From positions 16,741,955-16,805,954 of the forward strand of contig NC_089728.1 of the NCBI RefSeq assembly GCF_035083965.1: a stretch of 64,000 bases of DNA, in the 5' to 3' direction. Position 1 is the stretch's first letter. Each line of letters begins with the position of its first letter. The translations under genes and the position numbers were made by a program. Shown here one piece after another: positions 35,692 through 38,520 of the stretch. This DNA comes from Branchiostoma lanceolatum (taxonomy: Eukaryota > Chordata > Leptocardii > Amphioxiformes > Branchiostomatidae). Below the pieces are notes generated by a model that was not told the origin of the DNA, searched no databases, and saw only the letters and a list, made by a program, of their open reading frames with translations.

Positions 35692-38520
35692 CTAACATTC
35701 AGCCAGCCGTGCCTCGAGTTGTGCTTTCAGCTGTTCCAGGGCTCCATACAGGTGTTGGAAGAAAGTGACGTCACGCAAATAGTGCCAGTATAGGCTTCCC
35801 TCCGGGTCTGGAAGGGACATGGAGTCAGCCGTCCAGCTCTGATCTTCCAAATCACCAGCTGCCCTCAGCTAGCAAAAGAAGAGAAGAACAACATCTGTCA
35901 ATTAACAAAAACAAAGCAATAGACCGATCCTGGCTGTCCATCACAATTAGCAGTTCAACCAATGAGAGAATGACAATTATCGGTGCGACCAATGAGAGAT
36001 TGGATGGATGTCGGTCAAATGATTTTTTTTTATTTTGCAACTCTACGTCTTATTGGAGGTGGGTGGGCCATAGGATCGGTCTGTTTGAGAGCCGATATCA
36101 TCCCTTCCAATCAAGCGCCCTCTGTCGGAACATAAAAAAACTGCAGCACAGAAAGACACATATCAACCTGCCAGAAACAATACTTCACTTTTGGGATGTT
36201 TAAGTAACGATGAAACAAATGCAGAAGCCGTACATTGTGTGTGAAATCTACTGCAATGATGAATATGTTCTCAAGATAAGACGACACGGTATTGTCTGAC
36301 TGGTTTCTTACCGTAAAGCCTAGTTTGAACAGCAACTTGTTCAGGTATTCACCGGTGTCGTGCATCGCCTGTCGCAAGGTGTCGCTGTAATCGTTCAGCT
36401 CTTGTGCTTCGAGAATGACAGTTGGGATGGTGAGCTCGTAACTGGTGAGGTTACGGAACAGTGAAACCATGCCACCGTCCTCCTGGATAATGAATAATCT
36501 TCCATTTTGAACAGTTCACATTGAGAACAAGGCCTTCTTGTGTTATTCCCTTTCACAGTCTAAAGCAAAACCGCTCCTGCAGTTCCAGAAAAAGCCGCCA
36601 GGGGCCCAAATCTATACCACTCTGTCCAAAGAGCTATCTACCACTCGAAAATCAGAACCGTAGCATGTCCGGAACACAAGAAATCAAAACAGTAAGTTCC
36701 GCTGCAGTACCGTAACAAGTTGTCAGGGAGCCCAAAATCTAATCTTTTTCAGGTCTCATCAAGACCTACCCACATACCAAATATCAAGATAATCCATCCA
36801 GGCCTTCTCGAGTTATGTTTGTCTTCTACATACACACACACAAACGCTACCCAAAACATAACCTTCTTGGCGAAGGTAAATATGTAGAAAACGTGTGTGT
36901 AAGTTAGTTTGTATGTACACGTGTACACACAATCCTCTCTCTCTCTTTCGCATTCTCTCCCTCTTTCTCTCTCCCTCTTTCTCTCTCTCGCTCTCTGTGT
37001 GTGTGTTTCTGTGTGCATGTATGTACACGTGTGCGTGAAGGTATGTGTGTGTGTTGTTCTCGTACCGATATATTCTTGAAAGAATGTATCATTGATAATA
37101 TGACGATAAATAAATCGATGGCAAAACAATGACTAACCTGAAAAGCAGCGAATGTGGGGAAAACACCCCTGAAGAGGTCTTGTTTCTGTGAAAAAAAAAA
37201 CGATTTTTTTATCATATGTTTTGGCGAGGAATGTTAACGTTACCACACAACAACAACAACAATTACACCAAACAACACACGGGCCTTACTACAAAGCACA
37301 CGTATGACCATTGTTCAATTTGATAATACCATTCAAGTCCAAGAGCCAAAATGGAGCCGAAATTCAACATGAAAACATTTATAATAAGCGCCTTCCTTAG
37401 AGCTAGATTGAACAACGAAATCGAAGACCGCTGATTACAGGAAACTTACCATTATTGTCAGAGTATTGTTGGTCTGTTGGATTGTTCTCGCCGTCAGTTG
37501 AAGGTCTCTCCTGAACCCCCTCCTCTCACACGGACGGTAGGGGTTCGCCGCGTAGTGCACGAAGCGAGGCTGTCGGTCCAACAGTCGGGAATCTCCGGAT
37601 CCGGTCGGAAAGGCCGAGACAGACCCGACAACGGCCACCAGGAACAACGTCGACATTAGCAGATTTGCTGTAGACCAATGAAATGGAGTGTCAACGTTGT
37701 ATTGTAAGCATTTTTTGTTTCTTCTTTTTTTGTCCTTCGTCACAAATTGTACATTTTAGCGTTTATATATGTAGCATTTTGTCCCCTTCAATCTTAAAGT
37801 TTCATTCATTATTAGTTAGTTTAGGATTTACTAACGGTGACTACAACAATCTGAAAAAACGAGCGTTTAGAACTTTAGATTAGTTTTAGGACATATTCAT
37901 ACACTATGGACGTTAGAATTTTTGTGACATAGCCCACAGTTTTGTTAAACATACATATTACCGGATAGATATATTCCGTTCACAGTTTGCGTCCACGCGA
38001 TAATACGCGCGTCCCGAAAAAGATCGAAACTTTCGTATCCAGTCTTTCATTCTATACAACAAACATATTGTGTGCCCCGAAATAGATGTAAAGCAAATAC
38101 TTCGCAGATAAGCCATCATTTTTACGTCTTGCCCACAGTTATCTTATTATCTGTTCAGCTCTAGGCAACTTTACATAGACGAGCTTCAAATGACCAGCCG
38201 TATATTGTATATACATGTATCTTTTTTTGCCTAAACTATTTTTTTTTGTTTTAATTTAGTAGATACAATTGAACTTTTTTATAGCCCTAAGAAGGGCAGC
38301 CGACAGACGTTTAAAACGGAAAGTTGACAAATAACAAAAAGTTGGTTTTATAGAAGAAAAATTAAGCTCCTATATCCTATGATGTATTACCAACCTGATG
38401 AAACTATTCACGGATAAAGTAGAGCCCTCACTAATTTTCTCTCGTTACTAAAACTTCGATACGTTGACATGGCGTTGGCAAAATAGACCGGACATTCTCA
38501 CCTGTGAGTTGAGAAGACAT
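35692..38520 (-). CDS. Putative secreted long-chain four-helix class I cytokine/hormone (210 aa)
   Basis: Coding exons 38502-38520 (19 nt), 37450-37667 (218), 37138-37185 (48), 36312-36482 (171) and 35692-35868 (177, stop TAG); 633 nt in total. Intron phases are 1-0-0-0. The hydrophobic LLMSTLFLVAVVGSVSA is a signal peptide ending near residue 25. The rest is mostly predicted helix: A about 54-83, a short AB-loop exon (FRGVFPTFAAFQ), B about 98-125, C about 126-150 (YLNKLLFKLGF), D about 176-209 (YWHYLRDVTFFQHLYGALEQ). There are only two cysteines outside the signal, C53 and the C-terminal C210, so one disulfide could tie the N-terminal segment to the end of helix D. N-glycosylation sequons are NNT (73) and NLT. 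This exon plan is that of IL-6, G-CSF, EPO, GH and prolactin. No clear sequence family is recognised, so the class assignment rests on architecture. It should be extracellular and signal through a class I receptor/JAK route if correct. Confidence 0.7.
35925..36092. mobile_element. MITE family B copy in the last cytokine intron
   Basis: CAATTAGCAGTTCAACCAAT, GTCAAATGATTTTTTTT, GGTGGGTGGGCCATAGGATC. Ends degraded. Confidence 0.65.
36520..37065 (-). repeat. Dispersed '(GT)n' repeat with long microsatellite
   Basis: Reverse family blocks GTTCCGCTGCAGTACCGTAA, CTACCCACATACCAAATATC, ATAACCTTCTTGGCGAAGGT (36520-36877), then mixed CT/GT simple sequence to 37060. Lies in the cytokine intron between exons 4 and 3. 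Confidence 0.8.
37670..38500. other. First intron of the cytokine-like gene, nothing recognised
   Basis: AT-rich 834-bp intron between the 19-nt first coding exon and exon 2. No repeat family or coding segment seen. Confidence 0.4.

Follow-up and report, generated by a model that had tools for sequence, protein, structure and literature searches.

Within a 64,000-nucleotide stretch of the Branchiostoma lanceolatum genome (contig NC_089728.1, positions 16,741,955 to 16,805,954; hereafter the window), we analyzed a minus-strand gene whose five coding exons lie within 38520-35692 and whose product is 210 amino acids long. The product is very probably an amphioxus class I helical cytokine of the long-chain group, secreted and N-glycosylated and likely to signal through JAK/STAT. 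The structure of the gene, its conservation within the genus, and the predicted fold of its product are established. Cytokine signals of the GH/EPO/IL-6 superfamily have rarely been identified in animals without backbones, and the gene belongs to a further family of probable ligands, which apparently consists of two paralog groups that B. floridae shares with B. belcheri and which has an AB-loop cassette exon.

Relatives of the protein were found in other lancelets; the database names listed for them read "uncharacterized protein." They include B. floridae LOC118417796 (P0001; 211 amino acids, 69% identity to the window protein, E 1.9e-81), B. belcheri LOC109477601 (P0002; 206 amino acids, 62% identity), and two isoforms of a paralog, B. 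belcheri LOC109464450 (P0003 and P0004; 47% identity). Such identities in themselves point to a Branchiostoma distinct from B. floridae and B. belcheri as the species of the window. Three more relatives came from a profile search: P0005 (B. floridae), P0006 (a record from a B. floridae x B. belcheri hybrid), and P0007 (B. lanceolatum), which group with P0003 by identity and shared indels. None of the 4 proteins of the sequence search or the 7 of the profile search came from outside Branchiostoma. In a search of the window for a second family copy, tblastn with all 8 proteins of the family as queries, accepting E values to 0.1, matched this gene's own exons only.

All four introns have GT-AG borders, and their phases are 1-0-0-0. 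An earlier reading, made from the sequence only, had proposed the five-exon gene with its 19-nucleotide first exon, these phases, and the 210-residue product, and the intron borders and matching orthologs confirm it. To place the exons on the fold, we transferred the helices of the predicted P0001 structure onto the window protein. The reading's short exon at the AB-loop position is found on this map, as are its 57-codon exon for helices B and C, which holds nearly all of the latter, and its last exon with helix D, which also holds the end of helix C and the CD loop. The features are as follows, the promoter element being a candidate by consensus match.

38645..38650 (-): candidate TATA-like element, 130 nt before the start codon; 37600-38800 contains 6 matches of this kind, including this one
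38502..38520 (-): coding exon 1, 19 nt, start of the signal peptide (MSSQLT plus 1 nt), followed by a phase 1 intron with donor GTGAG; P0001 and P0002 conserve the peptide
37450..37667 (-): coding exon 2, 218 nt, completes the signal peptide and holds the C53-bearing N-terminal segment, helix A except for its end, and sequon N73-N-T
37138..37185 (-): coding exon 3, 48 nt, both flanking introns in phase 0, holds the AB loop and the last part of helix A; equivalent exon missing in isoform X1 of the B. belcheri paralog
36312..36482 (-): coding exon 4, 171 nt or 57 codons, spans helix B and all but the end of helix C and carries sequon N106-L-T
35692..35868 (-): coding exon 5, 177 nt including the stop, end of helix C, CD loop, helix D, final residue C210

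The tiny exon 1 is supported because the orthologs keep the start M-[SA]-S-Q-x-T (identical to the exon 1 peptide at 5/6 residues in P0001 and at 4/6 in P0002), unlike the sequence immediately upstream of exon 2, which would encode other residues. Identity to P0001 is 54/73 in exon 2, 42/57 in exon 4, and 40/58 in exon 5; exon 3 is the least conserved, with 4/16 residues identical to P0001 and 9/16 to P0005. As relatives exist in other lancelets, a chance arrangement of exons is excluded.

The protein has a hydrophobic N terminus, judged by inspection, that is similar in P0001-P0004 and differs in P0005. With the signal peptide so assigned, it fits the secretion and size expected of long-chain class I cytokines (about 160-200 mature residues). 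C53 and C210 are the only cysteines of the precursor, in agreement with the two mature cysteines, one of them the very last residue, that the sequence-only reading had noted. Both have equivalents in P0001-P0005, and the final cysteine is retained in P0006 and P0007, whose N-terminal part is missing. Additional cysteines are one in the signal peptide of P0003/P0004, one in exon 3 of P0007, and three in P0005, two of them in its differing N terminus and one in exon 3. The sequons N73 and N106 are kept in P0001-P0005, and an invariant tyrosine (Y180 in P0001) opens helix D across the family. Neither the window protein nor any of P0001-P0004 had a Pfam match with the cut-off set to E 10, the best matches of a PDB sequence search were phytases at E 0.19 and 0.33, which we took as chance, and Rfam returned 0 matches at the gathering threshold.

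The assignment to class I cytokines is carried by the predicted structures. Two AlphaFold 2 models, one of an ortholog and one of a paralog, align along almost the full mature chain with solved structures of long-chain class I cytokines, and the structural alignments are sequential; the connectivity is therefore common to the amphioxus models and the cytokines. The predicted fold is an up-up-down-down four-helix bundle with long AB and CD loops. These models support the class I interpretation of the sequence-only reading, and the outcome that it had named as fatal to itself, a confident structure other than such a bundle, did not appear. The gene plan agrees as well, with a tiny first coding exon, phases 1-0-0-0, and borders between helices; the basis of this comparison is the phases of the GH, IL-6, G-CSF, and TPO genes and exon 3 of EPO. 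The structures are predicted only, and helical bundles give inflated structural scores, so the product could be a secreted non-cytokine bundle that shares nothing but the arrangement. We regard this as highly improbable: among the structural matches listed, nearly all are class I cytokines and span the whole mature helical part, and both the gene plan and secretion agree with a cytokine.

By analogy with the superfamily, we infer the following course for the class I cytokine. The signal peptide would be cut off near residue 26, and the protein would be secreted and N-glycosylated. Helices A-D would pack as an up-up-down-down bundle, in which a C53-C210 disulfide, plausible from its EPO-like position, probably links the start of helix A with the end of helix D. 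The ligand would most likely bind class I cytokine receptor chains and thereby start JAK/STAT signaling.

On identity and shared indels, the amphioxus family appears to fall into two paralog groups. Since B. floridae and B. belcheri each have both groups, the duplication probably predates the split of these species. P0003 and P0004 differ solely by an in-frame stretch of 26 residues that follows M76. This methionine corresponds to M79, with which window exon 2 ends, and the residue at which the two isoforms first agree again corresponds to E96, with which window exon 4 begins. The isoforms X1 and X2 of LOC109464450, both automatic annotations, thus differ exactly at the exon 2/3 and 3/4 borders, as a phase 0/0 cassette exon predicts. 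Human EPO has its AB loop in exon 3 (nucleotides 160-246), and a natural isoform, EV-3, lacks that exon, as described in PMC5473850. Isoform X1, which lacks the AB-loop exon, would fold differently, as proposed for EV-3, because few residues would join helices A and B, too few for the up-up crossover.

We then asked to which subfamily the cytokine belongs. The sequence-only reading had matched it to no family, and this is upheld: beyond the lack of Pfam matches, profile and alignment comparisons gave no significant assignment, and because of this the gene is placed in no subfamily. In structural comparisons, the gp130-type cytokines (IL-11, CNTF, CLCF1) and prolactin appear closest and are practically tied. 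As reference we used 13 human long-chain cytokines. When the 8-sequence amphioxus alignment was compared with these using hhalign, the best score, 17.4, lay inside the shuffled range (104 shuffles: mean 12.4, maximum 20.9). Among the alignments inspected (EPO, CLCF1, LIF, CTF1, IL-11, CNTF), CLCF1 alone was clearly in structural register, its match running from helix C to helix D over 68 columns with one gap. Deeper profiles were built for CLCF1, CNTF, and CTF1 from 12, 20, and 11, respectively, of 120 listed proteins (366 passed the threshold) plus the human sequences. The real score was reached by 4/60 column shuffles for CLCF1, 31/60 for CNTF, 39/60 for CTF1, and 9/60 for the three combined, none of which is significant. 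Mean global alignment z over five amphioxus sequences was 2.27 for IL-6, 1.50 for IL-11, 1.42 for prolactin, 1.23 for leptin, 1.14 for CLCF1, 0.24 for EPO, 0.21 for TPO, and -0.12 for GH; with values ranging from 0.3 to 4.3 for IL-6 and from -0.8 to 4.7 for IL-11, no cytokine family was consistently high in all five. Placement by profile was rejected on these shuffles and the inconsistent z.

Membership of the gp130 branch (IL-6/IL-11/CNTF/CLCF1), as the ligand so far lacking for the IL6R-like receptor of amphioxus, is possible although short of probable. IL-11 and CNTF top both VIA structural lists, IL-6 and IL-11 have the highest mean z, and the CLCF1 profile match is in register. Cytokines of the gp130 type carry a site III aromatic motif, FxxK or W, at the start of helix D, and the invariant tyrosine aligned with the F of the CLCF1 FxxK. 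However, prolactin lies within about 1 Z unit of the VIA leaders and is third in mean z, the K of the motif is H or Y in the amphioxus family, the IL-11 z depends on the sequence chosen, and shuffled columns reached the CLCF1, CNTF, CTF1, and combined scores at the frequencies above. Somewhat unlikely is a place in the homodimeric-receptor branch of EPO/TPO or GH/PRL, with an EPO-like disulfide between the N and C termini and an EV-3-like isoform that skips exon 3. In EPO, a cysteine before helix A is paired with another where helix D ends, and EPO membership based on the motif and the cysteine pair is attractive by eye; it is unsupported by the alignment z and was kept as a rival only. TPO and GH have similarly low z, and EPO is just row 49 in the Foldseek list; its place outside the VIA rows listed carries no weight against EPO kinship. 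GH and PRL pair a cysteine of the AB loop with one of helix D, a pattern not found in the window protein, where C53 and C210 are the sole cysteines.

The gene could also be the published amphioxus GHl (KJ735508, 208 amino acids) or a GHl paralog acting through GHRl, a reading that we hold to be distinctly improbable. GHl is of similar length and is likewise described as a type-I helical cytokine in PMC9010856. Its quantitative PCR primers P19 and P20, from B. japonicum, are given in Table 1 of PMC5376476. Neither matches the window within 3 mismatches, a test weakened by divergence from B. japonicum, and none of the family's 8 proteins contains a primer peptide. When the primers are read in one of their two open frames, the resulting peptides AVLRRGFA and TQPTDIT resemble PCERRGFR (from residue 52) and TIPTVIL (from 113) of the window protein, at collinear sites (residues 52-59, exon 37450-37667; residues 113-119, exon 36312-36482); the other frame shows no resemblance. 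Shuffles gave a collinear pair as good in 16/300 cases for the window protein and 6/300 for P0005, but in 42/300 for P0001, 82/300 for P0003, and 149/300 for P0002, which comes from B. belcheri and should be the closest to B. japonicum. At the TIPTVIL site, P20 matches the coding sequence at 15/23 bases, reached by 43/1000 shuffles, whereas P19 matches 9/25 at the RRGF site and at best 14/25 elsewhere, reached by 409/1000. As the primers fail to match yet the peptides of one frame resemble, identity with GHl is unlikely, and GHl and the amphioxus family may be distant paralogs.

The class I cytokine described here is not the first of amphioxus in print, as GHl was published in 2014. GHl is the only amphioxus helical cytokine that we found described by name, in a 2022 review (PMC9010856) that also mentions several further, unnamed amphioxus cytokine genes. 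Our gene is a new member of a known superfamily and could possibly be one of those; we found no description of it or its family, including LOC118417796, in open-license PMC papers. According to a 2026 survey (PMC13203501), receptors, JAK, and STAT occur in many invertebrates, IL-6-type ligands are absent outside vertebrates except for insect Upd and a crustacean lectin, and an IL6R-like receptor in amphioxus is implied. With this family, amphioxus receptors can be tested against a concrete candidate ligand, and it therefore bears on the branching order of long-chain cytokines. A bolder view, to our minds quite unlikely, is that the gene and its paralog are the amphioxus counterparts of the pre-duplication ancestor of vertebrate long-chain class I cytokines, a single bundle whose fold and helix D aromatic resemble those of gp130 cytokines, whose terminal disulfide resembles that of EPO, and whose AB-loop exon is regulated in the manner of EPO EV-3. 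If true, the isoform skipping exon 3 would be an ancient second signal and no mammalian novelty.

Elsewhere in the window, inositol monophosphatase exons lie at 4105-11957 (+). Toward its C-terminal end (positions about 181-242), the profile is matched twice, at 4105-4374 and 11289-11957, and inspection by eye adds 4331-4867. The matches at 4331-4867 and 11289-11957 continue into an in-frame minisatellite, and an exon or the whole gene may thus have been duplicated. Three open frames at 27183-30153 (-) have ankyrin-repeat matches, two of them weak. Degenerate tandem repeats at 43288-51382 can be read by eye as '...SMKTTYTTVYHLYHKP...' on both strands, and beside them, at 51861-52253, a reverse transcriptase is matched weakly (E 0.00066), short of the Pfam cut-off. 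In exons at 54789-59801 (+), an SH2 domain is matched over its first half (54789-55028, E 4.5e-10), and two tandem IRS-type PTB domains follow 4 kb later (59052-59798, E 3.3e-43, two stretches); if this is one gene, we know of no vertebrate adaptor with that order. A Kelch-repeat exon at 63307-63999 (-; E 3.8e-18) extends past the window end.

Compared with known systems, the amphioxus protein shares with the gp130 cytokines (IL-11/CNTF/CLCF1/IL-6) the long-chain four-helix fold and the best structural scores, and the aromatic residue with which its helix D begins may correspond to theirs; it has no significant sequence similarity to them, and neither FxxK nor the site III tryptophan is conserved as such. 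CNTF, unlike the amphioxus protein, has no signal peptide. From GH and prolactin it differs in the cysteine pattern, and GH lacks sequence support. Like EPO, it has a cysteine before helix A and one near the end of helix D, a candidate pair; the genes share five exons with the AB loop in exon 3, and B. belcheri X1 parallels human EV-3 in skipping that exon. Sequence support for EPO/TPO is lacking, and the window protein has no second disulfide. The IL-10 family, as well as IL-3 and IL-21, has five exons and no split codon, as stated in PMC2654155, whereas the first intron of the amphioxus gene is in phase 1. GHl differs in that its primers do not match the amphioxus gene, and it is alike as an amphioxus type-I helical cytokine of 208 amino acids, with a weak hint of kinship in its primer peptides.
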